A stretch of DNA of 33,021 bases from positions 1-33,021 of the forward strand of contig JABMRV010000154.1 in assembly GCA_013202285.1 (NCBI GenBank), given 5' to 3'. The stretch comes from a bacterium. GTDB lineage: Bacteria; Electryoneota; AABM5-125-24; Hatepunaeales; Hatepunaeaceae. Numbering within the stretch: position 1 is the stretch's first letter; every line of letters starts with the position of its first letter. Positions 1,642 to 26,918 of the stretch are shown in pieces. The notes beneath the pieces were generated by a model. That model saw only the letters and a program-made list of their open reading frames with translations. It searched no databases and was not told where the DNA came from. A program made the position numbers and the translations under genes.

Positions 1642-4600
1642 ATGAAACGTTTGATATTTATTTCTCTCTCTTTCACCGCTCTTCTTCTCGCATTCACTTC
1701 CGTGTACGGTGATCACTTTGAAGTCGTCTATGATCAGGGAACCAATCACAGCTTAGAGATTGAGAATGCCTTTATTAACGATCAACCTCTCGAGGAGCAG
1801 GACGAAATCGGGATATTTACACCGGGAGGAATCTGCGCGGGAGTCGTGGTTGTAACCGATGAGGGCGCTCCATTCGGGGTTGCTGTCTATGGCGATAATC
1901 CCGAGAGCGAGGAACTGGATGGTTTCCTTACCAACGAAGAGTTTAGTTTCCTGATCTGGGACGCATTCGAGGGTCGCGAATACGATGCCCGAGCACAGTT
2001 CACTTCCGGACCCAGAACCTGGCAGCGCAATGGTATAACCCGCATTGCCAGAGTTTTCTATTATGATGACAATACACCGGTGATAATGGTCTCGACCCGC
2101 AACATCGACTTCGGTCTGGTTGGTGTAAATCATACCCTCAACTTGACATTAACTGTTGAAAATATTGGCTATGGTGATCTTTCGCTTAGCGAAATCGTTG
2201 TTATCAACCAGGTCTTTGAGACGAACTTCGATGACCTGAATATCGATAACCTTGATCCGGGGGAATCACTTGAACTGACCGTGATGTTCACACCGGGAGC
2301 TGCGCGTGATTATTCGGGCGAACTGCGAATATTTACAAATGATCCTAATAACGGCATGGTCAGGGTGATACTTACAGGCGAGGGTACGAGAGACATCGAA
2401 CCGGATATTTCCCTCTCAGAACTCGAACACGACTATGGTGAATGGCGTCTTCATTACACCATTGAGTGGGTGCTCCGAATTTACAATGATGGTACGGACA
2501 ATCTTACAATTGAAGATATTGATTTCGATGATGACGTATATAATTCTGATTGGGATGGAGATCCGTTAGTCATCGCCCCAAGAGGAACACACCATCTGAT
2601 TGTCGGATTTACTCCGGATGCTACGGAAGAATACCCAGGAACACTCACGATAATATCCGATGATCCCGACGAAGATGAACTGACTGTTTCACTTAGCGGT
2701 GTTGGTGTTGAGTCCGACGATCACTTTATCGATTACGGTCCCACAGATTCCAATCAGTCGCTTCTCATCTTTGAGGCAAAACTTAATAACGAATGGCTCT
2801 GTATCGGTGATGAGATTGCCGTGTTAGACCCGGATGACGTCTGCGCAGGATATGTAGTCATCGGTCCGGGTGATGATCCAAGTAGAATGAGAGGTATCCG
2901 CGCCTTGGGCGATGATCCGGGATCCCCGCGAGATGAGGGTTTCGAGGAAGGTGAAGAACTCCGTTTCCTCTACTGGGATATCTCCGCAGGTGTTGAAATA
3001 GATGCTATACCGGAATTCCTGGGCGGGATCCGTCTCTGGTCACCTGACACCTTTGTAGGACTGAACCTTTCCGGTCATCGAGATCCGCTTCCAATCATCA
3101 GCGCAACTCCAATGGTCAAGAATTTCGGTGAAGTTCACGCCAACCAGACCTACGAATCGTTTATTACAGTTACCAACAACGGCGAGACGGCTCTCCGTGT
3201 CTATAACATCGTATCCTCCATACCTCGCTATTTTGATGTTGACTTCGAAGTCGGATTCGTGCTGGCTCCGGAGGAATACCGGAATATCGCCATCACGTTC
3301 CAACCGGACGATGTCGATGATTATCAGGCTGAACTTAATATCACCTCGAATGGACACCACCAAGCGCTGACCGTTGTTGAACTTCGCGGTACGGGTATAA
3401 CTCCGCCTCAGACTATCGAGGTCAGTGAAATCGAACACGACTTCGGTCAGGTTCAGGTGGATCATATGGGAACATGGGAACTAATCATTTCAAACTCAGG
3501 CTGGGCAGAACTTGTCCTCGACAGGATTGAATCCGACAACAACGCCTTCACAACAAATTTCCCCGATAATCCGGTCAGGCTTGGTCGGGAGGAGGATCTG
3601 TTGGTTGAAGTCTATTTCATACCTTATCAGAATGGGTTCTTCGACGGCACACTGACCATCCATTCAAACGATGATGAAAATCCTACAGTTGATATCCAGT
3701 TGTCCGGCGAGGGGGTATCCTATGCTGGGATAGTTGTCGATCCGCCGGACCTCGATTTCGGTATGATTTTGGTCGGTGATCTGCTGGCACAGCGTTTCAC
3801 CATCACCAATGAAGGCAACGCCGACTTGCACATTACCAATATTATTATAGATGGAGAAGGCTTTTTCGTCAACTTCGACGGTGAAATCACTCTCGGTCCC
3901 GATGAGAGTCAAGACGTGCCGGTTTACTTTTATCCTGACTGGGACGACGAGTTCAATGCTCAGGTGATCATCGAATCAGACGACGAAGAGCAAGGGCAGG
4001 TCACGGTGGGACTCAACGGCGAGAGTTACATGCCCTCACAGGACATCCAATTACGTTATGCCCAGGGTGAGGTTTACGTACCGGAATTTGACATCCATGA
4101 TATAGTAGATGATTTCGACAATGCCCATCATGCACTCGGTGTCGATCTTGATAGGGATGGAGACGTCGATATACTCGGCGTAGCGGATATTGATGATGAA
4201 ATCTCCTGGTGGGATAATGACGGAGAACAGAACTTCACTAAATTCGTAATCAGCAACAATTTCGACGGCGCAGGCAAGGTGCATTATGCGGACATCGATG
4301 CCGATGGAGACATCGATGTTATCGGTGGCGCTCACGGTGCCAACCAGATCTCGTGGTGGGAAAATGACGGACGTATGAATTTCGATGAGCATGTCCTGGT
4401 GCAGAATTTCGATGCGTTAGGTGTTTACGGCATTGACATGGACGATGACCTCGATATCGATATCCTGGGTGTTGACCGGAACAACGGAATATATTACTGG
4501 GAGAACGACGGCAACAGCGGATTTACCAGGCGTACCGTAGTTGACAACTTCGAAGGATGCTGGACTGCTTATCCGGTCGATCTTGACGATGATAACGATA

Positions 4601-7600
4601 TGGATGTGATCGCTGCGTCGAGCAACACAAATCAGGTTGTCTGGTTTGAGAACGATGGCAACCAGGATTTCAGCAGGCATACTATAGCCAACAATTTCAT
4701 GGATTCGCGTTCGCTCTATCCGATAGACATCGACAGCGATGGAGACTGGGACATCGTCGCGGCTGCATTCGGTGATGACGAAGTCGCCTGGTTCGAGAAC
4801 GATGGTAATGAAAGCTTTTCCAAACATACACTATTAAACGATTTTCGTTTGGCGAACCGGGTCACTGCCGCTGACCTGGACGAAGACGGTGATGTTGATG
4901 TTACCGCGATATCCTTTTTTGGCAACGATGTCGTCTGGCTGGAGAACGACGGCAGCGAAGAGTTTACGACTCATGACATTTCACCGGGATATTCACGACC
5001 CACATCGATATCTACCTCGGATATAGATTCCGATGGATACCTCGATATTATCACCACTTACAACAGTAACAAGATATCGTGGTTTGAGAACCTGTACCAG
5101 GTTGAGCATGACTTCGGTAATTACGCAATCCACGAGGAGACGACTTGGACATTCACCATAGCCAACGTCGGTCAGGAGAGGCTACGGATTCGGACTATAA
5201 TACCTGTTCCTGATGACGGTATCTTCACCACCGATTTTGAAGAGCAGGCTACTATTCTTCCCGGTGCAGCCATTCAGGTTGTGGTCTCCTTCCAGCCGGA
5301 CTTCGTGGATCTGTTCGAGGGCTTTCTGATTATCGAGTCGGATGATCCTGACGAAGATGCGGTCATTGTCCCTTTGAAGGGAGAGGGTGTTCCCGGCAAT
5401 CAGCCGCCTTTTGTTGTTAGTCCAATCGACACATTGACGCTGGATGAGGATGACTTCGAAGATCTGGCCGTCGCCTGGCTCGACACGGTATTTGAAGATC
5501 CTGACGGCGATGATATGACATACAGCGCGATAAGTAATGATGGGGATTTCATCGTCCGGGTCGATGAGAATGACAGGTTGATCTTCGACAGTGCAGAACA
5601 TTGGTACGGCGAAGTGATGGTTACAGTCACCGCCGATGACGGGTATGAATTCCGAGATGATCCCGAATTACTCGGGACACGTCAACTCAGGATAATTGCA
5701 CGCAACCGACCCGAACAAGACGAGAATCGAGCCTTTTCAATGGCAGACGGTGGTAACGATCTGGATTACCATGAACGGATACCGGGGAGAGATTTTACTA
5801 CCGATCATATTATAAGCGTCACAGTAAACTCTGTGAACGATCCACCTGTATGGGATGAGGTGCCGGGTGACATAAACGTTGAAGAAGGTGACCATATCGT
5901 GTTCAGTGTCTCAGGAAGCGATATTGAAAATGACATTCTTGAAATCATAGACGACATCCCCGAGGGAGCTGTATTCACCGATAACAACAACGGAAACGGA
6001 GACTTCGAATGGCAGACTAATAACGAGGATGAAGGGAACTACATTGTAACACTCCTGCTCACCGATAGAACGGATACCACCACTGCAAGCATTAATATAA
6101 CAGTGGGCAACGTCAACCAACCTCCGATCTGGACCAGTCTTCAGGTAGAAGTCATCGGCTGGGAAGAGCATTTACTTACATTCACAGTTGAAGCAACCGA
6201 TCTCGACGGTGACCCCCTGACCATAGTGGAGCATTCAGACGATCTCCCGGAAGGATGGGAATTCGTGGACAATGAAAACGGCAGCGGTACATTCAACTGG
6301 ATACCCGGTTATGAGGATGAAGGAAACTATACCCTGAACTTGACAGTTTCCGACGGTCAGATCCCCGTTCCTGCGGATATCTCGATTATCATAAACAATA
6401 CAAACCGTCCGCCTGAATGGATAGATCCCCCTGATACGGTTAGGGTGAATGAAGAAGAGGAACTCCTGTTCAGCGTCGAAGCGATCGATCCGGATGGTGG
6501 AGTACCGGGATTGAGCGCTGCATCAGATGATCTTCCGGATGGCTGGGGATTCACCAATAACGACGATGGAACAGGAGAGTTTAGATGGACGCCGACCTAT
6601 GATGATTCAGGAGAATACATACTGACATTAGCTGCATCAGACAATGAAGACATTACCGAGACAGATGTTGTTGTCATCGTTAATAATGTCAATCGAGAGC
6701 CATATTTCGTCGATCCGCCTGAAATCGTCGATGGAAAGGAAGGCGAGGAACTTGTATTTATTTTTGAAGCTGTCGATCCCGATGGCGACGATGTGAGTAT
6801 CTGGATTTCATCCGAAAACCCGCCGGAAGGCATTCAATTCACCGATCATGGAGACGGTACCGCCACGCTTGTATGGACGCCAGGCTGGGAGGACGAAGGC
6901 GATTATAACCTCACTGTGTCAGCGGCTGATTACGAATACGAAGTTGATGCTGATTTTATTATCTCAATCGCACGCGGGAACCGTGAGCAGTTCTGGGTTG
7001 ACATACCGGACAGCGTCGAAGTTAACGAGGGAGAGGAATTGTCCTTCATTGTCGAAGCTGACGATCTCGACGGCGACGACCTGTCGCTCTGGGTCTCATC
7101 CGACGAACTGCCGGAGGGCTGGAACTTCACTGATTATGGCGATAACACCGGTGAATTCGTCTGGACGCCTGGTTTCGATGATTCGGGTCAATATACAGCC
7201 ACCTTTACTACTTATGATAGAATAGAATGGTACGTCGAGGAGGATGTTGTTTTCACGGTGCATCATGTGAACCGTGAACCTTACTGGGATTATATACCGG
7301 ATGCCGAACAGGCTGCAGAGGGCGCGGAGATCAGCTTCACTGTTAGAGGTTTAGATCCCGACAGTGACGATCTGACTATCGAGGCGCGTTCTGATGATCT
7401 CCCGAATGGATGGCAGTTCACTGACTATCAAGACGGAACGGGAGTCTTCTCCTGGCAGACCGATTATGATGACGAAGGAAATTACACCGCTTACTTCACC
7501 CTGTCGGACGGCGAGTATCCCATCGAGGAGGATGTGCTTATTGCCGTTGGTAACACCAATCTACCTCCGTTCTGGGTATTCATTCCCGATACGATTAACG

Positions 7601-10600
7601 CCGCCGAACCGGAACTCATTGAGGTTACTTTAATAGCAGAAGATCCCGACGGCGACCAGGTTTTCATCTCTTTCGAAGAGGAAGGCTGGCCTGACGAGGT
7701 GAGTTTAACCGATCATGACGATGGAACGGCTACATTCTACTGGCAGACCGATTATAACAGCGCCGGTGAATACTTAGCTGCGTTCTCCGTAACCGATGGC
7801 GATCTTCCCATCTCTGCCGATGTGCCTGTCATAGTTGCAAACACCAACCGCCCTCCTGACTGGGACGATTACCCTGAACATGTTTACGCTGAAGAGGACG
7901 AACTAATTCAATTCACAGTACAGGGCTCCGATCTCGACGGCGATCCTCTATCCATCGATTATGAATCCGGTGATATTCCCGATGCCGATTTCTTCGACAA
8001 TAATGACGGCAGCGGTGATTTTAGTTGGCAGACCTCAGCTTTGGACGAAGGTGATTATATTGCCACCTTTACTCTTTTCGACGGCGAGGACTATGTTCCG
8101 GTCGATGTTCCCATTACCGTATCGCACGTCGATCACGCGCCTACATGGGATGATATTCCTGTACGAGTAGAGGTGGATGAGGACGAGATTGTTCAGTTCA
8201 GTTTCGCGGGCAGCGACCTCGATGACGACCAGCTTTCGATTACTGTTACTTCGGACAACCTTCCCGACGGCGACTGGGGATACGTTGACAATGGCGACGG
8301 AACAGGTTCCTTCACCTGGCAGACTACCTTTGAAGATGCAGGTGAATACAGCGCTGATTTCAGCTTGACCGACGATCAATTCATCGCTGATACTTCTGTT
8401 ATTATCGTCGTCTATAATGTAAACCGGCAGCCTGAATGGTACTGCGTTCCAGCCGAACCGGAGGGGAGGGAGAACGAGGAACTTCAGTTCACCATATTCA
8501 CTTCCGATCCCGACGGAGACGACGTCTCGTTCGAAATAACCGATGAACTTCCCGAGGGTATGAACGTTCAGGACAACGGGGATGATTCCCACACATTAAG
8601 CTGGACACCAGGCTATGACGATGCCGGTGATTATCGTCTGGATTTCGATGTTTCCGACAATCAACTGACCACACCGGGCAGCGTATCATTCAGTATAATC
8701 AATGTCAACCGTCCGCCTGTTTGGGATGATACTCCGGTGCAGGTGGAAGTCCTGGAAACCGAGGAAGCCATTTTCAGCGTGAGCGGCAGCGATCCGGACG
8801 GAGATTTCCTCCGGATATTAACGTTTTCGGATGATCTTCCGAATGGCTGGAGTTTCTCCGACAACGGAAACGGCACCGGCGATTTTTCCTGGGAAACGGG
8901 TTATGATGACTCCGGTGATTATACACTAACCCTGACAATCACCGACGGCGTGGACAGCGCATCGGCAGATGTGAGCATTGTGATTAATAATTACAATCCT
9001 GAGCCGGTCTGGGATAATCTGCCTCTTCAGAGGACGGTCGATGAGGGTGATCTGTTCAGTTTCACCGTACAGGCTTCCGATCCTGCAGGTGAAGACGATC
9101 TTGTAATCACCTGGTACTCAGATAATTTGCCGGAGGATATACAGTTCACCGAGATGGATGATCCCGATCGGGTGCTGGTCGAATGGCAGACCGATTATGC
9201 CGATTCCGGCGAATATGTCATAACCTTCACTGTCTCCGACGGTGAATGGGACATAGAGGCGGATCTTACGATTGTCGTCAACGATGTGAATCCGGCGCCT
9301 GTTTTCGATGTTATACCCGAATTCTACATAGCCGATGAGACCGAAGTCATTCAATTCGCCATTCGGGGACATGATCCCGATGGATCGGCTGTCACGATAA
9401 GTTATTCATCGGATGATCTACCGGATGTCATCGAATTTGTTGACAACGAAAACGGCACCGCGTCCTTCACCTGGCAAACTACCTATGAAGACTCCGGTGA
9501 ATACACAGCCACGTTCAGCATCTCCGACGGTGTTAATGTAACTGAGCAGGATGTTCCGATCACAGTGAGGAATCTCAACCGTTGGCCCGTCTGGGATGAT
9601 GTACCGGAATTAGTCGAAATCAACGAAAACGACCGGATTGAGTTTTCGGTTTTCGGCAGCGATGAGGACGATGATCTCCTCCAGATAATTGCTTCTTCCG
9701 AAGACCTTCCCGAAGATTCGGGATGGGAATTCACCGACAATGGAGACGGCAGCGGTTTATTCATCTGGCAAACAACTTACGATGACTCCGGGAGTTACAC
9801 CGCAACGTTTACGCTGACAGACGGCTTTGAACCGGTCGATGCTGAAGTACAAATAATTGTCATCAACATGAACCGCCCGCCGGAATGGGTTGACGTACCT
9901 TCAGAACCGATCATTGCCGACGAGAACGATATTATCGATTTTATAGTTACCGGCATCGATCTCGACGCTGACGATGACTTAACCATTATCTATAGCTCCG
10001 ATAATATCCCCGAAGCCGCAGATTTCACGGATTTAACGGATGGAACAGCTTCATTCCGCTGGCAACCGACATTTGACGATGCCGGCAACTACAGCGCCAC
10101 CTTCACGCTGTCGGACGGCATGATTCAGGTTGACACAACGGTTCAGATTACAATTCTCAACGTCAATCGACGACCGATTTGGGATTATGTACCGGAACAG
10201 GAAACCGTCGATGAGGAGCAGACACTCGAATTCACCGTATCGGCATCCGATCCGGACGGCGAGAGGGTTTTCCTTACAGCCACCTCACTCGACATGCCCC
10301 CGGGCTGGGAGTTTGTTGACAACGATGACGGAACGGGCAGTTTCAACTGGACTCCGGGTTACGAGGATTCCGGTGAATATACTCTCTCTGTTCGGGCTTC
10401 AGACGGCGATCTCTGGGTGGTGAGTGATATCACCATCAGAGTTATCAATGTAAACCAGGCGCCGGTTTGGGATAATATTCCCGATTATAGGAGTGTCGAG
10501 GAAACCGAGATAGTCCAGTTCTATTTCCATGGCTACGACCCTGATGGTGATGCAGTAAACCTCGATATCGATCCTGACAATCTGCCGGACAGTTACGAAT

Positions 10601-13600: not shown

Positions 13601-16600
13601 TGACCTTGATCGTCAACAATGTCAATCAGGCGCCGTACTGGGCTCAGATACCCGATACAATCTCTGCCGACGAGGGGACGATGTTTTCCCTCACTGTGGT
13701 CGGAATCGACCATGACGGGGACGATCTCACTACCTCACACTTCTCGGACGATATCCCGGAAAATGCGGATTTCACCGATCATGGGGATGGAACGGGTACT
13801 CTTTTGTGGGATATTACTTATGCTGATGCCGGCGTATATACCAGTCTTTTCACGATCAGCGATGGAGTGCTTGAATCGACTGCACCCGTAACCATAATAG
13901 TGAATAATGTGAATAATCCGCCGTACTGGGTCGATATGCCTGACTTCATAGGAATCGATGAAGGCGGATTGGTCGTATTCTACGTCGAGGGTGTCGATTC
14001 CGAGGGTGACGCTCTCGAAATCCGCTATAGCTCAATCGACATACCGGAATCCGCAGATTTCTCAGATTTCGGAAATGGTACGGGAGTCTTCACATGGCAG
14101 ACTAACTTCGAAGACATGGGCAGATACAGAGCGCTATTCACACTCTCCGACGGCACTCACGACGTCCCCGCGGCGGTAATCATCACTGTAGGCGATGTCA
14201 ATATGCCGCCCGAATGGGTGGATGTCCCTGATACTGTGATAGTTACCGAAGGCAACCAGCTTGATTTCTTTGTCAATGGCAGCGATCCTGATGGTGATGC
14301 CCTTACCATCTACTTTTACTCTCACTACCTGCCCGAAGAAGCCATATTTACCGATAACGGCGATGGTACAGGAAATTTCACATGGCAGACCGGTTATGAG
14401 GATGAGGGAGTATATTTAGCTACTCCGATCCTCTCAGATGGTGAATACGATGTCGAGGCTGAAGTCCAGATCATCGTCCTCCACAGCAATCGTGAACCTG
14501 AATGGGTCGTACTGCCCGAACAGGAGATTGTGATCGACGAGGGTGATCTGCTGCAGTTCGATGTTGCCGCCAGCGATCCGGATGGTGATATCCTGAGATT
14601 GAGCATGACTTCTCCAGATCTGCCGGAAGCCGCAGTTCTCACAGATAACGGGGATGGTACAGGAGTCTTCACCTGGCAGACCAGTTACCTCGACGGTGGA
14701 TTCTATGAACTCATCCTCGTTGTATCAGACGGCGAAGATTCCGATGAGGCGGACATCTTCATCAATGTCGGCAACCTGAATCAGGTTCCGGTGTGGACGG
14801 AATATCCCGAGAATCTCACCGTAATCGGTTACGTGGAGAACGATGTATCGGTCGAGCTAACGGCTGAAGATCGCGATGGCGACGATCTTGAGTTCTTCTG
14901 GCAGTGGTCAGGGGAACGACCGGGCGATCCGCAGGTTAATTTCGAGGTCATCGATGACAACCGAATCAGGTTCACACTGAATACCGACCGCTTCGAGTTC
15001 GGTGTTTACAACGTGACCTTCTCAGTCTCAGACGGTGTGAATGAACCCCAGCTTGATATTGCATTTAATATCGGAACCGATCATTTCATCTACACTGAGA
15101 CCGGGAGTTCGCACGAGATCCGAATAGACAGACTGGTTCATTTCGGCGATGTACTCGAACGCGATGAACCTGAAATCTGGGATGAGATCGGTGTTCTGAC
15201 GCCCGATGGTGTAGTAGGCGGCTCTTACAGGTTCACTGATCAGATCGATATGCCTTTGACACTCATGGCTTATGGTGATGATCCTAACACGCAGGATATC
15301 GAAGGTTTTGCTCCCGACGAATCTTTCACCTTCCGTTGCTGGGATTACGATGAAGGCGTCGAATACGGCGCACGCGCCGAATTAATTGCCGGTGACCGAA
15401 ACTGGCGGCATGACGGATTCTCACTGATTGAACTGTTCATCGGCACCGGCTTAACCGTCGAACCCGGAGAACTTGATTTCGGTCAGCTGCATGTTCAGGA
15501 GAGTTCCTCTCTGAATCTGACATTGAGAAATTCCGGCACCATACCCATTGAAGGCTTGACGTGTCTTATTGATGGAGGCAATTTCTCAGTTCCAGACCTT
15601 TCATACGACCTTGATGTCGATGAGGAGATCGAAATCGAAGTAACCTTCTCACCTGTATCCGACAGAGCTTATAACGCTGTTCTGCATATACGCGCCGATT
15701 TCGTGGATCTTGCCACAGTCGAGCTTACCGGAACCGGTATCGAAACCTGGTATTACGATTATACCATCACCGGGATATTCCACAACATAGACGTACTGCA
15801 GGCTGACTTTGACGGCATTCCCGTCGAGGATTACACCGAAATCGGTGTTATGACACCGGCTGGATTATGTGCCGGAGCCATCCTCGCCGCGGGAGATGCA
15901 CCCTGGGAGATCAGGGTCTATGGCGATGATCCTGAAACGCAGGAAATTGACGGTTTCCGTGCCGGTGAGCAGTTCCACTTCGCCTTCGCCGATACGATGG
16001 GAGGGGATGAGATTGAAGTTGAAGCCACTTATCTTGCTGGTCCCGACGAATGGGAGGAGGACGGTTATTCTGCGGTCATCCTGTCCACAGGAGACGCGCA
16101 TTTCCACCCTGTCATTAACGAAAGAGCGCATCATGTTTTCATCATTTCCGTTGATTATTTCGGCGAAGCGCTAAACTACACCGATGAGATCGCCGCGATC
16201 ACACCGCGCGGCGACATCGCTGGCAGCGTGATGATCACACCTGATCTCGAAATCTGGGAACTTGACGCTTACGGGGATAATCCCGATACCCGTAATGTGG
16301 TTGAGGGCTTCCGAACCGGAGAGTATATCTATTTCCGGTTGTGGGATGCTCAAAGCGAAATCGAGGTTGTTGTCAGGGCTGAATGGGCGGAAGGACCGAA
16401 CCGCTGGGATGACGACGCCGAAAGCCATGTTGTTCTGACAGCCGTCAGCGACAATAACGCTCCCATTTTCAGACCGCTGGACGATATCACGGTTACAGAG
16501 GATGAGGATATAGATCTTCTTCTCTACGTTCTCGATGGCGATGAAGATCCTATCAGCCTGTCGCTGATCGGTGTAAACCTCCCTCAGGGAATTGCATTTA

Positions 16601-19600
16601 CCGATCTGCATAACGGCAGAGGACTCTTCTCCTGGAGACCGAATTATAATCAGGCTGGGCAGTATATTGCTCTCTTCCGAGCCTTTGACGGAATCGATGA
16701 AACCAGGCTTGAGATCCCCATCAGAGTGACCAACGTAAATCGCCCGCCGGTGATAGCTGAAATAGACTCTATTGAAATCGACGAGGGCGAGCGGTTACTG
16801 CGGCTCCTCGAAGCCTATGATCCGGATGGCGATCCGGTCAGCTTCTCGATAGAGAACCTGCCCGTCGGGGCTTCACTTGTCGGCGCTATCCTGCGCTGGA
16901 CTCCGGGATACGACCAGGCGGGAGAATATGATCTCACCATTCGCGCCACCGATTTCGGACAACCTCCGTTGTCCGACGAGGAGCTTGTTCATATATTGGT
17001 TATCGAAGCCCAGAGAGCGCCCACCTGGGATGAGGTAGATATCGTCAGGGCTCATGAAAGTGATTTCGTCGAACTGAACCTGAGAGCTGTCGATCCCGAC
17101 GGAGATGAACTGGAACTCACTGCATTCAACCTGCCTCAAGGGTCGCAGTTCATGGACCTCGGCGGTGGTGACGGTGTTTTCACCTGGCAGACAGGTTACA
17201 TACATGCAGGATATTACCAGCCCTCATTCGTCGCCAGTGACGGCGTGTTAGCGGACACGATGATAGTCGAAATCTACATCCTGAACGTGAACCGGATGCC
17301 GATTCTCGAACCGATCGACAACCAGACGGCTTATGTCGGAAGTTCGGTTGAATTTGACGTCACCGCCAGCGATTCCGATGATGAAGATAACGGTCAACTC
17401 GAGATTTCCACGCGCAATGCGCCGCAGGGATTAACGCTCAATGAATGGGACGGTTCCAGCGGCAGTTACATTTGGGCTCCTGATGAGCAGGGAATTTTCC
17501 CCGATGTGCGCATCAGGGTATCCGACTCCGGTGGTGGATGGGACGAGCAGACGATCATCCTTACCGCTCTTCCTATCGACGAAGAGCCACCGGTAATAAC
17601 CGGTCTCAATCCGGCTAACGAGGAGATACTGCGCATCGACCGCCCGGCTATCCGCGCCAATATCACCGATGAGGGTAGCGGTATCGATATCGTTGAACTG
17701 ACCTTAGACGATCAACCTTGTGAGGACTGCACGTTTAATCCTCAAACCGGCGGTCTCGTGTGGGTTAGCGCAGGAGAACTGTCAGAAGGCGATCATAACT
17801 ACACGGTGCGCGCGGTGGATCATGCCGGAAACCAAACACAGATCAATGTAGTATTCGTAGTCAATGCTGATCCCGGCGTCATTGAACCGGATGATTATAC
17901 CATATACACTCTGTACGACAGAATCGACCTGAGCGGCACGACCGATCCCTTCGTGGATGTTGAACTGTGGTTGGACGGTGACCTTACAGGCGAAGCCTAT
18001 GCCGATTACCGCGGTCGGTTCACCTTCGAGCAGGTGGAACTGAACGAGGAGATGAACCGCTTCATTATGCGTGGTCATGACAACCTCATGGCGCCCGTGA
18101 GAGTGGATGTATATCTCGACATTGAACCGCCCGATATCGATCTTGTCTTCCCGATCGGCTGGATTTCCGAAACAATGCCTCGCATTCGAGCGTGGATCGA
18201 TGACGAAGGAATCGGATTGGACGTCGAAGAGGGCATTTATCTGGCAATCGACGGCGTTCAGATTGAAGGATATGGCTTCTTGGACGGCTTCCTGACATAC
18301 AACATTCAGGATCCCCTCGAAGAGGGTGAGCACGTCATCAGCATTGCAGCCGTTGACCTTTTAGGCAACACTCCGGATGACTCACTCGATGCAGTTATCT
18401 TCATCGACAGCCAGGCGCCGGTTGTCGATCACCCGTACTTCACCGAGGGCATGGTTTTTATCTCCAACCGGTCTCCCGAGCTGATTATCCCGATAAACGA
18501 CCCTATTCCCTCCAGCGGAATCCTGGGTAATGATCTGGTACTTAGCGTGGACGGCGAAGAACTGGACTATGATTGGTTCGAGATCGATCAGTCCGTTATA
18601 TTCGATTTCGACGGGTACGATGAATTAGAAGCTGGTGAACATACCATCATTATCGACGTTGACGACCGGGCGAGGAATAATACCAGAGCTACCGGCGGGT
18701 TCATTATCACAGATATCCAGGACTATGAGGCGCCGGTAATCTCGAACATGTTTCCTCCTCACGAGAGTACTGCCGGCGATGGAGATGGAGGCTTCGGCAT
18801 CATACCTGCGAGATTCTCCGCTGATACTGTGGCGTTCGTCATCAGTGACAATGATGTCGGAGTCGATTGGGATACGGTCTGGATGTGGGTGATTGCCTTG
18901 AACGATCCCGGTGATCCGGCAGATAACGACACCACCGTGTATCTACCCGGCGAGCTGTTCCAGATGCCCCACGGCAGGATGGTGGCTGTCATGCGTAATA
19001 ACGGTGATGGTCCGCAGCTCTCACCCAACGAGATGGGCGGTCTGCAGATCGGTCTTATCCAGATCGAAGCTTTCGGAGACGATGAAGTGGGTAACCAGGC
19101 GTCGCAGTTGTGGCAGTTCTTCTTCGATCCTGCTGCGCCAGAGACTCCGACACTGGTCGAACCGAATTTCTATTACACCAACGACGCCGTCATCAGTATT
19201 GACGGGTTCGCCGGAGGCGACGAACCGATTTATCCGGATGACTATGAGAATCTCATCACAATCAGGATCTATAGGAACGACGATATCGCTGCCGAGATTT
19301 ATGCAGATACGTTCTTCGATTTCACCGTACCGGAAGTTCTGCTGGTCGAAGGTGTGAACAGTATCACAGCAACCATGCTCGACGGTGGCGGTAACGAATC
19401 GGAATTCAGCGATCCAATCGAACTGGTTCTCGACCTTACATCACCTGAAATAACGGGCTTCGAAACTCCGCGCGGACCTCATATTTCCGATATAACACCT
19501 CTCTTCTCGGCAACATTGCGCGACCAGGGAACCGGTATTCAGGTCGCCGATATTGTGTTTAGTGTTGACGAAATTGAGTACGAATCGATATATAACCCGA

Positions 19601-22600
19601 ATAACGGCTCCCTTATCGCATCGGTCATGGATGATCTCGACGAGGGAGAGCATACCGCCCGCATCGATGTCAGCGATCTGGCTGGTAACACGACGTCGGA
19701 GGAGTACTCCTTTGAAATACATCTCCCACCGGTCGATCCACCTGAATTTGAACTGACACCCTATACGAGTACAAACCGCATATCCCTGACCGGTACTTCT
19801 GATGCCGGAAACGATATTGTTATTATCGTAAACGACAGGGAAACCGGCATAGTCGAAACAGATAATGCCAACGAATTCAACTTCGTCTATAACGCGCCTG
19901 AACTCCCTGAACCCACATGGATCAGTCTCATGGCGGTGAGCGAGGAGGAGGTCGAGAGCGAACATACCGAACCGCAGATGCTGCGCCACGATTATGCCGT
20001 GCCACTCTTCACCGGAACCCAACCGGAAAACGGCACGATTGTAGCCGTTTGGGAGCTTGATTCCGTCTCAGTTCATGTAAGCGACGCCGACGCCGGACTC
20101 GACTCTGAAGGCTTCTCCATCTCCCTGATGGGTGAAGCGGTGATGTTCAACTCGTTCGAGTCCGATTCCGGATACTGGCTGAGTGCTGATGTGGCTGATA
20201 TTGAGTTCGTCAACAATCAGACAGTCGAAGTCATAGCCGGTGCGAATGATCTTGCAGTTCCACCGAATCAGGGCAGACTGCGCTGGGAGTTCGTCACCCA
20301 GGTCGGAGCTTCTCCCGTTCTCATGCTGCCTGACACCTCGGTAAACGAAGATGAACAGCTTGCGCTGAACCTGTTTGCTTACGCCGATGACCCGGATCAT
20401 ACCTGGCAGGACTTGAACCTCACTGCTGAACTGGTCGAGGGCGACGAACATGCCCAACTGGCGCTCGATAACCTCGGTGTTCTACGCGTCAGAGCAGAGG
20501 AAAATTGGTTCGGGCGTCTCAGCATCGCCGTAGAAGTGGTCGATCCGGATGAACAGAGCGGCGCTGACACGATGATCGTGGATGTACTGCCGGTGAACGA
20601 CGCGCCAGTGTTCGACGAAATCGAGGATATGGTGGTCGATGAGGGTGAAATCGTACAGATTTGGGTTACGGCAACCGACATTGATCCGGATGATCAACTG
20701 ACCTTCAGTACAACCTCCAACCTGTTCAACCTCTCACCGTTCGGAGTGGCTGTTTTCCGTGCAGTAGGTGCCATGCGCGGCGTTCACGAGATTGAACTGT
20801 TCGTTAGAGATGAAGCGGGAGCAACCGGTCGGACGACATTCGAACTGACGATCAATTCAGTCAATAGTCCGGTGGAGGCAATCGGAGATATCCCCGATCT
20901 GGTGATAGATGAAGACTCCGAAGCCTTTACTGTCGCATCACTCGATACGATATTCTTCGACGCGGATGATGACCCGCTGTTCTATGAAGTTGAGTGCAGG
21001 GGTGGACTTATCATAGAGATCGACCCGGAGTCGAAACAGGTTACCATCGAACCGGAGAGGAATTTCTTTGGTGAGCGACGCGTTACGATCAGCGCCGATG
21101 ACCGCAATGGCTCGACGGCTTACGCCGAGTTCTGGCTGACAGTAACGGGAATAAACGATCCGCCTGAGCGTCGCGGTTTTCTGCCGTTCGATATCTCGCT
21201 GCCTGAAGATCCGGGCAGATACGTAATTGCCGATCTGGACAGCGTTTTCTTCGACCCGGACGGCGACAACATCGAGTTCGATACCGATGGCGGCGATTCG
21301 CTCGGAGTGATGATCGACGCCTATGGCATACTCACGCTGAACCCGATGCCGGACTGGTACGGTGTGCAGACGTTCACTCTGAAAGCCGATGATGGACATG
21401 AACCTGAAGGCGGACCGGTGAGAAATTCCGGCGACGCTGAATTTGTTGATTTCAGTAACTGGACAATGTCAAACGGCGCTCCTTCACGCGACGATTACAT
21501 ACCGATTGACATCATGGTGGAGATTCTGTCAGAAAACGACGCACCGCGGATCATAGCTCCGATTGAAGACCAGGTGTTGTATGAAGATGACATTCCCAGA
21601 CCTCTTCTCAACCTTTTCGATGTATTTGTCGAAGTCGATGGTGATGACATGGAGTTCTTCGTAACTGCGGAACAACCTTTGGAAGTTAGATGGAGCGACC
21701 AAAACGGCAATCTGCTGCTGATTGCTCCTGACAACTTCCACGGTCTCGACCTTGAGGTCGTCGTTGTTGCTAAGGATCCGTCCAGACTTGAGTCAACCGA
21801 CATTTTCATGGTTGACATACTGTCGATCAACGATCCTCCGCAGGTGATGAATCCCATCGCTGACCAGGAATTTGAGGAAGATGACGGACCCTGGATGGTG
21901 GTCGATCTTGATGATGTATTCTTCGATCCGGAGGGCGATCCGTTCTACTATCGCGTTCGTGCGGAAGAACCGCTGATTGTTGAGATCGATGACGATCACC
22001 TGCTTACAGTAATGGCTCCCGACAACTTCAACGGAACGGACATCGAGGTAACTGTTATCGCTTCGGACACCCCATTCCAAATCACAACCGGATCGGGCAG
22101 GGTCGCAAGATCGACAAGATCAATAAAGCGCGATGTCGGTCCTGTGAGGCAGTTGCGGTCAACCCGAAGCGTAGGTCGAAGTGTAGGGGCTGAACATCTT
22201 CAGCCAATACAATTTGGAAATCGCTTTGACGATTCTCGACCACCTCGCCGCGACGAAGAGATTGAGGAAATCTTCAAGGTGACCATTACTCCCGTTAACG
22301 ACGTACCGGTCTGGACGAATTACCCCGTGAACGTTCAGGTAGCCGAACTCGACTCGATTAAATTCGACGTTATAGCAATTGACGTCGATATGATATATGG
22401 GGGTGAACTGCTTGCTCTGAGGATCGTTGAGGAGAATGGCGTCATCGCGAGAGGCGCGTTTTTCACCGACAACGGCGACGGCACGGGAAGATTTTACTGG
22501 CTGACCGATTATGACGATGCCGGTGATTTCTACATTGTCGTGGAGGCAAGGGACCGGGCAGATGTAGCCGTATATGCGGACATCAGTATCACCGTCAATA

Positions 22601-23520
22601 ACATGAATCGTCCGCTTATTCTGGAACACGAACTTCCCGACATGGCGTTCGCGGAGGACGATTCGTTCAGGATGGACTATAACCTGAACTATCACTTCTC
22701 CGATGCCGATAACGATACACTCGTCTTTACCGTACCGGAACATCATGGGATAGTCTATCTGCTCGACGAGGACAACCATCTATTCCTGAAACCTGAACCC
22801 GACTGGAACGGCGAGACCGAAGTTGTCATCGCTGCTACCGATGGCTTCATGCAGGTAACGGATACTCTTATCGTTTCAGTCGAATCGATCAACGATCTGC
22901 CGACTGCTTTCGATCTGAGTCAACCGGCGGACAGCGTGTATAGATACAGTTATCCATCGGTGCAGTTCAGTTGGCAGGAATCGATAGACATCGTTGAGGA
23001 TTCAACCATGACCTATAACCTGGTTATGTACTTCAACGATGAGGAACATTGGTACCGCGACCTTCCGGATACAACACTCTATGTGATGCGTGAGGACTTC
23101 GTCATCAATCCAGATGAACCGACCGAAGTAGAGTGGTGGGTCTGGGCTTATGACGGCATTGATTCCGTGCGCAGCGACGGTACCAACATTGTTATCATCG
23201 CCGCGATAATCACTTTCAGGCCGGAAAAATTAATCATTCCGTCCGAATTTGTGCTTGGAAATGCCTATCCGAACCCGTTCAACGACGCCACGCGCATACC
23301 GTACGACCTGCCTGAACCGTCCGACGTGGTCATCACCATATACGATCATACCGGCAGGCTGGTTAAAACTGTCGAAAACCGTTATATTTACGCCGGACGC
23401 CATGTAGCTATGTGGGACGGGAAAGACCGGTACGGTATAAGGTCTTCTGCAGGATTGTATTTCATCAAGCTCAAAACGGATCTCGGTGTGAAGATGAGTC
23501 GGGTGATGTTGTTGAGATAA
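1642..23520 (+). CDS. Giant secreted multidomain protein (7292 aa) with T9SS type A sorting tail
   Basis: A single uninterrupted frame starts at an ATG with AGGTG 5 nt upstream. Residues 1-23 are a signal peptide ending SVYG. In order: a 'DEIG...CAG' module (~24-148); two choice-of-anchor-D domains (~148-356); a second DEIG module (~360-478); three more anchor-D domains (~484-794); seven FG-GAP/VCBS units (~815-1150); another anchor-D domain (~1152-1252); a cadherin-like domain with a long insertion (~1254-1399); 32 tandem cadherin/Ig-like (CADG/He_PIG type) domains (1400-4478); three DEIG modules with a seventh anchor-D domain (~4480-4935); four more CADG-like domains (~4938-5313); bacterial Ig-like domains (~5314-6217); cadherin-like domains (~6220-6885); one further CADG domain, a cadherin-like and an FN3-like domain; and the sorting tail (7200-7292). 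The protein is very acidic, with DPDGD-type calcium-binding sequences in most domains. Family knowledge points to an exported surface or matrix adhesin delivered by T9SS; the ligand is unknown. Confidence 0.93.
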   Translation: MKRLIFISLSFTALLLAFTSVYGDHFEVVYDQGTNHSLEIENAFINDQPLEEQDEIGIFTPGGICAGVVVVTDEGAPFGVAVYGDNPESEELDGFLTNEEFSFLIWDAFEGREYDARAQFTSGPRTWQRNGITRIARVFYYDDNTPVIMVSTRNIDFGLVGVNHTLNLTLTVENIGYGDLSLSEIVVINQVFETNFDDLNIDNLDPGESLELTVMFTPGAARDYSGELRIFTNDPNNGMVRVILTGEGTRDIEPDISLSELEHDYGEWRLHYTIEWVLRIYNDGTDNLTIEDIDFDDDVYNSDWDGDPLVIAPRGTHHLIVGFTPDATEEYPGTLTIISDDPDEDELTVSLSGVGVESDDHFIDYGPTDSNQSLLIFEAKLNNEWLCIGDEIAVLDPDDVCAGYVVIGPGDDPSRMRGIRALGDDPGSPRDEGFEEGEELRFLYWDISAGVEIDAIPEFLGGIRLWSPDTFVGLNLSGHRDPLPIISATPMVKNFGEVHANQTYESFITVTNNGETALRVYNIVSSIPRYFDVDFEVGFVLAPEEYRNIAITFQPDDVDDYQAELNITSNGHHQALTVVELRGTGITPPQTIEVSEIEHDFGQVQVDHMGTWELIISNSGWAELVLDRIESDNNAFTTNFPDNPVRLGREEDLLVEVYFIPYQNGFFDGTLTIHSNDDENPTVDIQLSGEGVSYAGIVVDPPDLDFGMILVGDLLAQRFTITNEGNADLHITNIIIDGEGFFVNFDGEITLGPDESQDVPVYFYPDWDDEFNAQVIIESDDEEQGQVTVGLNGESYMPSQDIQLRYAQGEVYVPEFDIHDIVDDFDNAHHALGVDLDRDGDVDILGVADIDDEISWWDNDGEQNFTKFVISNNFDGAGKVHYADIDADGDIDVIGGAHGANQISWWENDGRMNFDEHVLVQNFDALGVYGIDMDDDLDIDILGVDRNNGIYYWENDGNSGFTRRTVVDNFEGCWTAYPVDLDDDNDMDVIAASSNTNQVVWFENDGNQDFSRHTIANNFMDSRSLYPIDIDSDGDWDIVAAAFGDDEVAWFENDGNESFSKHTLLNDFRLANRVTAADLDEDGDVDVTAISFFGNDVVWLENDGSEEFTTHDISPGYSRPTSISTSDIDSDGYLDIITTYNSNKISWFENLYQVEHDFGNYAIHEETTWTFTIANVGQERLRIRTIIPVPDDGIFTTDFEEQATILPGAAIQVVVSFQPDFVDLFEGFLIIESDDPDEDAVIVPLKGEGVPGNQPPFVVSPIDTLTLDEDDFEDLAVAWLDTVFEDPDGDDMTYSAISNDGDFIVRVDENDRLIFDSAEHWYGEVMVTVTADDGYEFRDDPELLGTRQLRIIARNRPEQDENRAFSMADGGNDLDYHERIPGRDFTTDHIISVTVNSVNDPPVWDEVPGDINVEEGDHIVFSVSGSDIENDILEIIDDIPEGAVFTDNNNGNGDFEWQTNNEDEGNYIVTLLLTDRTDTTTASINITVGNVNQPPIWTSLQVEVIGWEEHLLTFTVEATDLDGDPLTIVEHSDDLPEGWEFVDNENGSGTFNWIPGYEDEGNYTLNLTVSDGQIPVPADISIIINNTNRPPEWIDPPDTVRVNEEEELLFSVEAIDPDGGVPGLSAASDDLPDGWGFTNNDDGTGEFRWTPTYDDSGEYILTLAASDNEDITETDVVVIVNNVNREPYFVDPPEIVDGKEGEELVFIFEAVDPDGDDVSIWISSENPPEGIQFTDHGDGTATLVWTPGWEDEGDYNLTVSAADYEYEVDADFIISIARGNREQFWVDIPDSVEVNEGEELSFIVEADDLDGDDLSLWVSSDELPEGWNFTDYGDNTGEFVWTPGFDDSGQYTATFTTYDRIEWYVEEDVVFTVHHVNREPYWDYIPDAEQAAEGAEISFTVRGLDPDSDDLTIEARSDDLPNGWQFTDYQDGTGVFSWQTDYDDEGNYTAYFTLSDGEYPIEEDVLIAVGNTNLPPFWVFIPDTINAAEPELIEVTLIAEDPDGDQVFISFEEEGWPDEVSLTDHDDGTATFYWQTDYNSAGEYLAAFSVTDGDLPISADVPVIVANTNRPPDWDDYPEHVYAEEDELIQFTVQGSDLDGDPLSIDYESGDIPDADFFDNNDGSGDFSWQTSALDEGDYIATFTLFDGEDYVPVDVPITVSHVDHAPTWDDIPVRVEVDEDEIVQFSFAGSDLDDDQLSITVTSDNLPDGDWGYVDNGDGTGSFTWQTTFEDAGEYSADFSLTDDQFIADTSVIIVVYNVNRQPEWYCVPAEPEGRENEELQFTIFTSDPDGDDVSFEITDELPEGMNVQDNGDDSHTLSWTPGYDDAGDYRLDFDVSDNQLTTPGSVSFSIINVNRPPVWDDTPVQVEVLETEEAIFSVSGSDPDGDFLRILTFSDDLPNGWSFSDNGNGTGDFSWETGYDDSGDYTLTLTITDGVDSASADVSIVINNYNPEPVWDNLPLQRTVDEGDLFSFTVQASDPAGEDDLVITWYSDNLPEDIQFTEMDDPDRVLVEWQTDYADSGEYVITFTVSDGEWDIEADLTIVVNDVNPAPVFDVIPEFYIADETEVIQFAIRGHDPDGSAVTISYSSDDLPDVIEFVDNENGTASFTWQTTYEDSGEYTATFSISDGVNVTEQDVPITVRNLNRWPVWDDVPELVEINENDRIEFSVFGSDEDDDLLQIIASSEDLPEDSGWEFTDNGDGSGLFIWQTTYDDSGSYTATFTLTDGFEPVDAEVQIIVINMNRPPEWVDVPSEPIIADENDIIDFIVTGIDLDADDDLTIIYSSDNIPEAADFTDLTDGTASFRWQPTFDDAGNYSATFTLSDGMIQVDTTVQITILNVNRRPIWDYVPEQETVDEEQTLEFTVSASDPDGERVFLTATSLDMPPGWEFVDNDDGTGSFNWTPGYEDSGEYTLSVRASDGDLWVVSDITIRVINVNQAPVWDNIPDYRSVEETEIVQFYFHGYDPDGDAVNLDIDPDNLPDSYEFIDNGDGSGSFLWETTFEDSGTYRPVFLISDNALTTEHTVIIDVGNVNQPPFWTDIPVEVQVREGDLLEFTMSAEDTDEDDLSFSFDEDDVPDDPEDPDNPFLDDRGLGTARFTWTPTYADQGVHDVTFSVSDGIATIDRDVRITVIHVNLPPVWTRVEEFIQFGEGDLVLFSVEGEDPDNDNLTIDYYSGDLPEEEVTFVDHGVGVGTLSWQTEFGDVDEYHATFTISDDQYHVDVDVTISVSDVNRRPVWDVYPNPISAEESDLIQFTIEAYDPDDDPLRIRHIGLPDEAQFIDNEDGTGRFSWQTDYFDAGEYVVTFIVSDGDIDVPLYIDITITGINQRPLWTDIPDAVHADNPGDLIEFDIVGEDIDGDNLDITEVIPQGAEFNETGNGRGSFYWQTNEDDEGVYYASFTLSDWEFDETKQVVITIGDVNQPPEWVEFPDDMIVDEGDLISFTVRGSDPDDDPLRFRHDGLPDEALFTDNLDGTGDFEWQTGPHDSGEYTLTFTLRDGNYHIDRILRIRVNDTNQPPEWTSVPGDIVENEGETVDFFLRGVDNDGDDVTITFDDQGWPDEVTFNDLGDGRAVFAWEPNFNDAGGYTARFTLSDGVFSVDTTVNITIDNVNCEPFYTIEPEPITVLEGEFINFIISGDDIDGDELTIVFDTTGWTDAAQFTNLGSGSGIFAWQTNYNDAGNYTAHFTLSDGEFDVETDVEISVTDVNREPIWIYMPDRFTGYEDSEVEIAVFAVDPDDDELTLDCDSDDLPEGWEFTDEGEGIGFFDWTPGYEDSGQYTATFTVSDGENASSGDVLITINNVNRPPQFTDIPVYVEEYELEIVEFTISGSDPDGENVTLDMIVDDLPDEMQFTDNGDGSGSFYWETTYEDQGEYLITFVISDGNLDTEGDVQVRILNVNREPVWVYVPDEITRDEDESFDFGLVARDPDDDQLTITMQSVDLPEEAVLNDEGDGRARFTWDTDLEDAGTYNPIFYLSDGVAVVETTMTLIVNNVNQAPYWAQIPDTISADEGTMFSLTVVGIDHDGDDLTTSHFSDDIPENADFTDHGDGTGTLLWDITYADAGVYTSLFTISDGVLESTAPVTIIVNNVNNPPYWVDMPDFIGIDEGGLVVFYVEGVDSEGDALEIRYSSIDIPESADFSDFGNGTGVFTWQTNFEDMGRYRALFTLSDGTHDVPAAVIITVGDVNMPPEWVDVPDTVIVTEGNQLDFFVNGSDPDGDALTIYFYSHYLPEEAIFTDNGDGTGNFTWQTGYEDEGVYLATPILSDGEYDVEAEVQIIVLHSNREPEWVVLPEQEIVIDEGDLLQFDVAASDPDGDILRLSMTSPDLPEAAVLTDNGDGTGVFTWQTSYLDGGFYELILVVSDGEDSDEADIFINVGNLNQVPVWTEYPENLTVIGYVENDVSVELTAEDRDGDDLEFFWQWSGERPGDPQVNFEVIDDNRIRFTLNTDRFEFGVYNVTFSVSDGVNEPQLDIAFNIGTDHFIYTETGSSHEIRIDRLVHFGDVLERDEPEIWDEIGVLTPDGVVGGSYRFTDQIDMPLTLMAYGDDPNTQDIEGFAPDESFTFRCWDYDEGVEYGARAELIAGDRNWRHDGFSLIELFIGTGLTVEPGELDFGQLHVQESSSLNLTLRNSGTIPIEGLTCLIDGGNFSVPDLSYDLDVDEEIEIEVTFSPVSDRAYNAVLHIRADFVDLATVELTGTGIETWYYDYTITGIFHNIDVLQADFDGIPVEDYTEIGVMTPAGLCAGAILAAGDAPWEIRVYGDDPETQEIDGFRAGEQFHFAFADTMGGDEIEVEATYLAGPDEWEEDGYSAVILSTGDAHFHPVINERAHHVFIISVDYFGEALNYTDEIAAITPRGDIAGSVMITPDLEIWELDAYGDNPDTRNVVEGFRTGEYIYFRLWDAQSEIEVVVRAEWAEGPNRWDDDAESHVVLTAVSDNNAPIFRPLDDITVTEDEDIDLLLYVLDGDEDPISLSLIGVNLPQGIAFTDLHNGRGLFSWRPNYNQAGQYIALFRAFDGIDETRLEIPIRVTNVNRPPVIAEIDSIEIDEGERLLRLLEAYDPDGDPVSFSIENLPVGASLVGAILRWTPGYDQAGEYDLTIRATDFGQPPLSDEELVHILVIEAQRAPTWDEVDIVRAHESDFVELNLRAVDPDGDELELTAFNLPQGSQFMDLGGGDGVFTWQTGYIHAGYYQPSFVASDGVLADTMIVEIYILNVNRMPILEPIDNQTAYVGSSVEFDVTASDSDDEDNGQLEISTRNAPQGLTLNEWDGSSGSYIWAPDEQGIFPDVRIRVSDSGGGWDEQTIILTALPIDEEPPVITGLNPANEEILRIDRPAIRANITDEGSGIDIVELTLDDQPCEDCTFNPQTGGLVWVSAGELSEGDHNYTVRAVDHAGNQTQINVVFVVNADPGVIEPDDYTIYTLYDRIDLSGTTDPFVDVELWLDGDLTGEAYADYRGRFTFEQVELNEEMNRFIMRGHDNLMAPVRVDVYLDIEPPDIDLVFPIGWISETMPRIRAWIDDEGIGLDVEEGIYLAIDGVQIEGYGFLDGFLTYNIQDPLEEGEHVISIAAVDLLGNTPDDSLDAVIFIDSQAPVVDHPYFTEGMVFISNRSPELIIPINDPIPSSGILGNDLVLSVDGEELDYDWFEIDQSVIFDFDGYDELEAGEHTIIIDVDDRARNNTRATGGFIITDIQDYEAPVISNMFPPHESTAGDGDGGFGIIPARFSADTVAFVISDNDVGVDWDTVWMWVIALNDPGDPADNDTTVYLPGELFQMPHGRMVAVMRNNGDGPQLSPNEMGGLQIGLIQIEAFGDDEVGNQASQLWQFFFDPAAPETPTLVEPNFYYTNDAVISIDGFAGGDEPIYPDDYENLITIRIYRNDDIAAEIYADTFFDFTVPEVLLVEGVNSITATMLDGGGNESEFSDPIELVLDLTSPEITGFETPRGPHISDITPLFSATLRDQGTGIQVADIVFSVDEIEYESIYNPNNGSLIASVMDDLDEGEHTARIDVSDLAGNTTSEEYSFEIHLPPVDPPEFELTPYTSTNRISLTGTSDAGNDIVIIVNDRETGIVETDNANEFNFVYNAPELPEPTWISLMAVSEEEVESEHTEPQMLRHDYAVPLFTGTQPENGTIVAVWELDSVSVHVSDADAGLDSEGFSISLMGEAVMFNSFESDSGYWLSADVADIEFVNNQTVEVIAGANDLAVPPNQGRLRWEFVTQVGASPVLMLPDTSVNEDEQLALNLFAYADDPDHTWQDLNLTAELVEGDEHAQLALDNLGVLRVRAEENWFGRLSIAVEVVDPDEQSGADTMIVDVLPVNDAPVFDEIEDMVVDEGEIVQIWVTATDIDPDDQLTFSTTSNLFNLSPFGVAVFRAVGAMRGVHEIELFVRDEAGATGRTTFELTINSVNSPVEAIGDIPDLVIDEDSEAFTVASLDTIFFDADDDPLFYEVECRGGLIIEIDPESKQVTIEPERNFFGERRVTISADDRNGSTAYAEFWLTVTGINDPPERRGFLPFDISLPEDPGRYVIADLDSVFFDPDGDNIEFDTDGGDSLGVMIDAYGILTLNPMPDWYGVQTFTLKADDGHEPEGGPVRNSGDAEFVDFSNWTMSNGAPSRDDYIPIDIMVEILSENDAPRIIAPIEDQVLYEDDIPRPLLNLFDVFVEVDGDDMEFFVTAEQPLEVRWSDQNGNLLLIAPDNFHGLDLEVVVVAKDPSRLESTDIFMVDILSINDPPQVMNPIADQEFEEDDGPWMVVDLDDVFFDPEGDPFYYRVRAEEPLIVEIDDDHLLTVMAPDNFNGTDIEVTVIASDTPFQITTGSGRVARSTRSIKRDVGPVRQLRSTRSVGRSVGAEHLQPIQFGNRFDDSRPPRRDEEIEEIFKVTITPVNDVPVWTNYPVNVQVAELDSIKFDVIAIDVDMIYGGELLALRIVEENGVIARGAFFTDNGDGTGRFYWLTDYDDAGDFYIVVEARDRADVAVYADISITVNNMNRPLILEHELPDMAFAEDDSFRMDYNLNYHFSDADNDTLVFTVPEHHGIVYLLDEDNHLFLKPEPDWNGETEVVIAATDGFMQVTDTLIVSVESINDLPTAFDLSQPADSVYRYSYPSVQFSWQESIDIVEDSTMTYNLVMYFNDEEHWYRDLPDTTLYVMREDFVINPDEPTEVEWWVWAYDGIDSVRSDGTNIVIIAAIITFRPEKLIIPSEFVLGNAYPNPFNDATRIPYDLPEPSDVVITIYDHTGRLVKTVENRYIYAGRHVAMWDGKDRYGIRSSAGLYFIKLKTDLGVKMSRVMLLR
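4084..5090 (+). repeat. Seven FG-GAP/VCBS units (probable seven-bladed beta-propeller) inside the giant protein
   Basis: Seven consecutive units of about 48 residues (protein ~815-1150) share the pattern NNF...(V/A)DxDxDGDxDh....(I/V)xW(W/F)ENDG...F..H. Each has an Asp-rich DxDxDGDxD calcium-type loop (weaker in unit 3, and DxDSDGYLD in unit 7) and a W-ENDG strand. Seven units match the usual blade count for a closed FG-GAP propeller such as the integrin alpha head. The last unit is shortened after WFEN and runs straight into an anchor-D domain. Confidence 0.85.
5839..15075 (+). repeat. Array of 32 tandem cadherin/Ig-like (CADG/He_PIG-type) domains
   Basis: Thirty-two units of ~92-102 residues follow each other without linkers (protein 1400-4478). 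Each begins after a VN boundary as (R/Q)xPxW.xIP, followed by an Asp-Glu turn (VDEGD), SDPDGDxL, SDDLPxxxxF.DNGDGTG.F.WQT.Y.D.GxY...F..SDG, and closes with a VxxxVN strand. I counted units by the PxW starts and VN ends. Unit 18 carries an acidic insertion (DDPEDPDNP), and unit 32 is degenerate. Spacing is uniform, but most copies have diverged at the DNA level, which suggests an old expansion with selection on fold and length. This probably forms a long, calcium-stiffened stalk. Confidence 0.9.
15079..16445 (+). repeat. Three further copies of the ~115-residue 'DEIG...CAG' module, with one anchor-D domain
   Basis: Copies lie at protein ~4480-4603, ~4703-4815 and ~4819-4935. Two more are near the N-terminus (nt 1711-2090 and 2719-3075). 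Shared features are a start like DHF, then (D/T)EIGVxTPxGxCAG, AYGDDPxTxxxDGF..GExFxFxxWD and W..DG. The core cysteine is replaced by Val in the third copy of the protein and by Ile in the fifth. Similar DEIGVFDG-type modules occur in other T9SS-tailed proteins of FCB bacteria; their ligand is not known to me. Confidence 0.8.
22063..22280 (+). other. Arg/Ser-rich basic insertion inside a cadherin-like domain of the giant protein
   Basis: Between the penultimate strand (VTVIASD) and the last strand (FKVTITPVND) of a cadherin-like domain, the protein carries about 65 extra residues. They include ARSTRSIKRD, RQLRSTRS and GRSVG, which are strikingly basic in an otherwise very acidic protein. Two other cadherin-like domains have insertions in the same loop (nt ~5653-5805 and ~21396-21500). 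The reading frame is continuous, so this is not a frameshift artefact. Confidence 0.75.
23239..23517 (+). other. T9SS type A sorting domain (FlgD-like C-terminal tail) of the giant protein
   Basis: The last 93 residues (7200-7292) match the Por secretion tail family: YPNPFN near the start, TRIPYDLPEPSDVVITIYD, GRLVKTV, AGRHVAMWDGKDRYG, SSAGLYFIKL and a final short strand. In type IX secretion this domain directs the folded cargo across the outer membrane and is then usually removed or exchanged for a surface anchor. It is the strongest taxonomic marker in the window. Confidence 0.9.
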
Positions 23521-23552
23521 TTTACCTGAACCTTCTTCATTCTTTATTCAAT

Positions 23553-23583
23553 AAGGGCGTCCCGACTAATTCGGGACGCCCTT
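23553..23583. terminator. Bidirectional hairpin terminator between convergent genes
   Basis: A perfect 13-bp stem (AAGGGCGTCCCGA paired with TCGGGACGCCCTT) encloses the 5-nt loop CTAAT. It sits 32 nt after the giant gene's stop and 25 nt beyond the channel gene's stop, so it can serve both strands. The T-tracts are weak on both sides. Confidence 0.8.
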
Positions 23584-23608
23584 GTAATTTATATATGTAT
23601 CCGATTTA

Positions 23609-26752: not shown

Positions 26753-26793
26753 ATCCTTACCGTTATTATCAAAACCGTTTTGTTGTGAACATA

Positions 26794-26906: not shown

Positions 26907-26918
26907 TGAAGAGGGTGA

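Follow-up and report, generated by a model that had tools for sequence, protein, structure and literature searches.

A giant predicted type IX secretion cargo in one intact reading frame of a bacterium of the phylum Electryoneota

The window analysed here, the whole stretch of 33,021 nucleotides, is one contig (C137) of a draft genome of 3.0 Mb from an uncultured host (91.9% complete, 261 contigs), and most of it is occupied by a single intact gene for a protein of 7,292 residues, whose domain order is conserved in a second genus and whose host carries SprA, PorU and a PorV-family gene of the type IX secretion system (T9SS). Read from its sequence, the product is probably a giant acidic surface protein that would leave the cell by Sec and then by T9SS export (SprA, PorV, PorU), forming a rod stiffened by Ca2+ that would act as an adhesin or matrix fibre. 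Its features, with the basis of each assignment, are as follows.

1642 to 23520 (+): giant open reading frame, 7,292 aa; intact frame, with a complete 7,293-aa orthologue in genome G006
1642 to 1710 (+): Sec signal peptide MKRLIFISLSFTALLLAFTSVYG; by eye, layout alike in six relatives
1711 to 2085 (+): display module 1, an undescribed all-beta domain; profile match, AlphaFold2 pLDDT 93.7
2716 to 3096 (+): display module 2; profile match
3100 to 4026 (+): ASH/HYDIN-like (choice-of-anchor-D) domains; Pfam and NCBIfam, edges approximate
4081 to 5091 (+): FG-GAP-type beta-propeller; Pfam/NCBIfam scan
5839 to 15072 (+): stalk of 32 cadherin-like (Big_9/tandem-95) domains of 89-98 aa each; Pfam, NCBIfam and repeat profile
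15076 to 16464 (+): second module set, display modules 3-5 and one ASH domain; Pfam and module profile
16456 to 17562 (+): second short array of four cadherin-like domains; iterated repeat profile
17569 to 20300 (+): Big_13/OmpL47-like Ig domains; Pfam and NCBIfam, edges approximate
20338 to 22596 (+): tandem-95/cadherin-like domains, including an Arg-rich insert around aa 6816-6870; NCBIfam and repeat profile
23263 to 23508 (+): T9SS type A sorting domain (TIGR04183/Por_Secre_tail/FlgD-Ig fold); Pfam, NCBIfam and structure model
23551 to 23585 (+): terminator-like hairpin of 15 bp, starting 31 nt past the stop codon; consensus match only

The frame opens with ATG and runs without any internal stop, which at the given base composition would occur by chance with a probability of about 10^-154, and its GC content by codon position is even over the whole length (about 0.60/0.37/0.51-0.61); the gene thus bears no sign of having been fused from several. 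The computed mass of the product is 812.6 kDa and its pI 4.05, so that the unbroken frame of roughly 800 kDa described in an earlier note on this DNA stands. That such a gene might be an artefact of assembly, through collapsed repeats or the fusion of neighbouring genes, is suggested by the fragmentation of the draft and by the length of the repeat array. Against this, a genome of the same family and another genus (G006, contig C4) holds a complete orthologue with identical order, which aligns over 7,159 residues at 46% identity and is collinear from the signal peptide through the tail, and the retention of nearly the same length in a relative marks the frame as a real gene. A third copy (G008) reaches at least 6,013 aa, where it leaves its contig, and another (G003) is cut at about 1,545 aa. 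The stalk repeats share on average 63% and at most 72% nucleotide identity, too divergent for ordinary collapse, and the codon-position GC is uniform throughout. The artefact is therefore refuted for practical purposes, its residual probability being negligible, and the collapse or fusion that the earlier note had named as fatal to its reading is contradicted by the orthologue in the other genus. The surroundings of the gene are less constant: seven flanking genes were searched for around the fetched orthologous and paralogous genes, with zero matches. Downstream of the giant gene and on the opposite strand lie two adjacent pentapeptide-repeat genes (23609-25977, -), one with an ion-channel domain and the other with a TIR domain, which may form a defence-like pair, and an ABC transporter adjoining a DUF1854 protein (26294-29204, -).

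The order of modules, propeller, 32-domain stalk, second module set and sorting tail that had been proposed was confirmed by Pfam and NCBIfam together with the repeat profile. The motif HFE stands immediately C-terminal to the signal peptide in six relatives, further ASH/HYDIN-like domains are found between display modules 1 and 2 and also C-terminal to the propeller, and the propeller has relatives of 25-39% identity in MAGs of Bacteroidota, Ignavibacteria, Calditrichota and others. In the iterated repeat profile the stalk comprises exactly 32 consecutive domains (aa 1400-4477) with constant 5-residue linkers, and repeat units recur outside it: a separate block of four (aa 4939-5307), a single full unit (6887-6985) and a weak partial one at 6320. 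Acidic motifs of the D-x-D type are present in nearly all stalk units (30 counted) and the repeats match cadherin-23 weakly, which makes Ca2+-dependent stiffening of the stalk likely. Total repeat matches number 38 in the giant and 36 in the G006 orthologue, whose array is slightly shorter; many middle repeats find their best match at another position of the orthologue, and units from 27 onward mostly preserve their order. Such out-of-order matches suggest turnover within the array while the total length stays conserved. The Arg-rich insert (aa 6816-6870, about 22087-22251) lies inside a cadherin-like domain, the Arg-rich inserts of orthologues sitting elsewhere; it is probably unstructured, and Arg-specific C25 proteases might process the protein there.

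The display module, of about 105 residues, occurs five times in the giant (aa 32-134, 368-472, 4487-4595, 4710-4811 and 4826-4929) and has 63 copies in a collection of 15 giant proteins, 11 of which contain it. Thirty sampled copies gave zero credible Pfam and zero NCBIfam matches, and comparison with the PDB by sequence returned no credible relative. AlphaFold2 folds module 1 with confidence into an all-beta model (pLDDT 93.7, pTM 0.87), for which no PDB structure matched at E <= 0.001. All nine same-family genomes contain the module, with 17 to at least 71 matches each, and it is scattered elsewhere in the phylum; 22 genomes outside the host phylum gave zero matches. Restriction to the phylum was nonetheless ruled out by matches in three named Bacteroidota MAGs, with 103 copies in one (Bacteroidetes bin.444) and one in each of the other two. 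Inspected by eye, three of four Bacteroidota loci place the module just N-terminal to a T9SS-like tail, and in both loci read of Bacteroidetes bin.444 it adjoins such a tail. We therefore regard the module as a putative undescribed domain, greatly amplified in the host family and present in some Bacteroidota.

Export by the T9SS is suggested by both ends of the protein. At the N-terminus, the Sec signal peptide expected of type A cargo was recognised by eye rather than by a predictor, six relatives being similar; at the C-terminus, aa 7209-7289 of 7292 match the type A sorting-domain model TIGR04183 with a modest 31.7 bits (cut-off 23). The same segment reaches 23.8 bits with Pfam Por_Secre_tail (PF18962), below its cut-off of 27, and 32.5 bits with FlgD_ig (PF13860), over its cut-off. 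Its structure model (pLDDT 92.0) finds FlgD Ig domains as top matches, but also resembles the C-terminal domains (CTDs) of PorU (6za2, 6.4e-4) and PorZ (5m11, 2.5e-3) and, more weakly, RemZ in the extended SprA translocon (8gl8, 1.7e-2), and the tail profile matches the cargo tails of 8glj and 8glk. Since the fold is common to FlgD Ig domains, it is by itself no proof of export. CTDs can be specific to a species (PMC11285876). The host genome encodes SprA (SprA_N present; a frame of 2,332 residues whose halves score 503 and 306 bits, equivalog cut-off 200), PorU (652.8 bits, equivalog cut-off 420) and a PorV-family gene (276.8 bits with the PorV/PorQ model, cut-off 90; 207.2 bits with the PorV equivalog, below its cut-off of 250), so that translocon, shuttle and sortase are all represented, and sprA, porV and porU, which the earlier note had named as components to look for, were all found. 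The genes porU and porV are adjacent on contig C127, where a T9SS-tailed M6-like protein (7372-10563, -) directly follows them. At least 150 T9SS tails are present in the genome, 94 of the 103 tail hits in fetched loci end at most 6 residues from the stop codon, and among 23 Peptidase_C25 matches some of the peptidases bear the tail themselves. With SprA, the adjacent PorU-PorV pair, the C25 peptidases and the abundance of tails, the designation as a predicted T9SS cargo is well supported, in agreement with the earlier claim.

An unused tail, with a FlgD-like Ig domain merely closing a periplasmic or otherwise exported protein, would fit the FlgD_ig score over its cut-off where Por_Secre_tail stays under its own, the FlgD structures as best matches, and the failure to detect GldM and GldN. 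We consider it improbable, as it must be set against the recurrence of the tail, mostly close to the end of the frame, in a genome that also encodes SprA, PorU and PorV, against the C25 peptidases among its bearers and against a TIGR04183 score exceeding the cut-off. On the preferred reading as T9SS cargo, the giant protein would cross the inner membrane via Sec, its C-terminal type A sorting domain would be recognised by the T9SS, it would pass the outer membrane by way of the SprA pore, shuttled by PorV, and PorU would cleave and attach, or release, the protein. Outside the cell, Ca2+ would rigidify the 32+4 cadherin-like domains into a long rod with a set of binding modules at each of two places, beside the propeller close to the N-terminal tip and again further along. 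From this anatomy a plausible role would be attachment to a surface or to a neighbouring cell, or a place in a matrix fibre.

The T9SS has been placed across the FCB phyla in reviews (PMC11205867, PMC8754138, PMC11285876) and in Bacteroidetes only in an earlier model-based survey (PMC4793230). In the RpoB tree the host phylum forms a clade apart from Bacteroidota plus Ignavibacteria. Of gldKLMN, also proposed for checking in the earlier note, GldL, GldM and GldN were searched for, with another outcome than for the translocon: profiles of GldM and GldN had zero matches in nine genomes of the host phylum (the host and eight relatives) and likewise in Ignavibacteriaceae, Calditrichota and another FCB MAG, both profiles matching in two Bacteroidota control genomes. 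Uncontrolled searches of the host genome with GldL and GldM_4th gave no match. Sequence profiles can miss divergent Gld forms, and the motor is to be taken as undetected, not as proven absent. The Gld ring and motor characterise the secretion system of the host and not the cargo. A tentative and rather unlikely reading is a T9SS variant outside Bacteroidota that would keep SprA, PorV and PorU but lack the GldLM/GldN drive, with proteins of 0.6 to >1 MDa still exported by means of another energy source, or of folding and Ca2+ binding outside the cell.

The composition of the protein is also peculiar. The giant contains 23 lysines in 7,292 residues, and only one in aa 1700-6464 (4,765 residues), with arginine at 3-4%; the G006 orthologue has 0 lysines across 5,693 residues, again with arginine at 3-4%. 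Lysine amounts to 0.09-0.77% in the other giants, about 0.5-2% in shorter T9SS-tailed proteins and 3-8% in most cytoplasmic-type proteins of the host genome. Possible reasons for its avoidance are a halophile-like acidic ectodomain, escape from Lys-specific C25 proteases, or the keeping of amines away from the PorU sortase. Together with the undescribed display module, the near-absence of lysine provides concrete new leads.

Giant T9SS-tailed proteins recur in the host family. The host genome encodes a larger one of 10,052 aa (contig C21, about 12.4-42.5 kb) and others of 5,833 aa (C149) and 5,579 aa (C140), besides a frame of at least 6,240 aa (C85) that runs off its contig before any tail; related genomes contain open frames of 7,043 to 10,816 aa with display-module or propeller sequence. 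These sizes bear on the earlier suggestion that the protein tests the limits of T9SS export, which is weakened by the 10,052-aa frame and by SprB of Flavobacterium johnsoniae, a gliding adhesin of 6,497 aa exported by the T9SS (PMC9870892, PMC10202324). With SprB as precedent, a size of 7,292 residues is not without parallel, and the 10,052-aa protein of the same genome goes well beyond SprB. What stands out is a predicted megadalton T9SS cargo in a phylum without detectable motor genes, a combination that makes the energy source of export accessible to comparative genomics. A literature search of incomplete coverage turned up no paper that connects giant proteins from candidate phyla with the T9SS.

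Among known systems, SprB is one of the closest parallels, being likewise a giant filamentous T9SS-dependent surface protein, and it is by size and tail that the present giant is likened to it (PMC9870892). These same features could point to a SprB-like gliding adhesin, propelled over the surface of the cell by a motor coupled to the T9SS. SprB, however, carries a type B CTD requiring SprF (PMC10202324) and depends on GldLM motors, whereas the giant belongs to another phylum and has a tail of predicted type A (in the NCBIfam scan TIGR04183 exceeds its cut-off, and no match to a type B model was returned). GldM and GldN, required for the display and movement of SprB, were undetected, GldM of the GldLM motor included, and gliding thus appears very unlikely. 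Nearer relatives of the predicted cargo are the paralogue of 5,833 aa on contig C149 and its counterparts in G006 (C316) and G003 (C61), which have the opening sequence, display modules, cadherin-like array and second module set in common with it. The T9SS-type tail is present in C149 and C316, C61 ending at its contig edge; the array of C149 is shorter than that of the giant, whose propeller segment falls outside the matched region. A plasmid search for relatives gave generic choice-of-anchor-D and cadherin-like matches only. The inter-module ASH domains exceed the cut-off of the choice-of-anchor-D/ASH-HYDIN surface proteins (NF012200, PF22544), but are here one component of a far larger protein. 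The stalk domains fall in the families of tandem-95/cadherin-like repeat adhesins (NF012211, PF17963 Big_9, PF17803), the tandem-95 model NF012211 scoring 351.5 and 296.4 bits in the two halves of the giant (cut-off 90); in contrast to those adhesins, the giant combines 32 strictly spaced consecutive units with display modules, a propeller and a T9SS tail.
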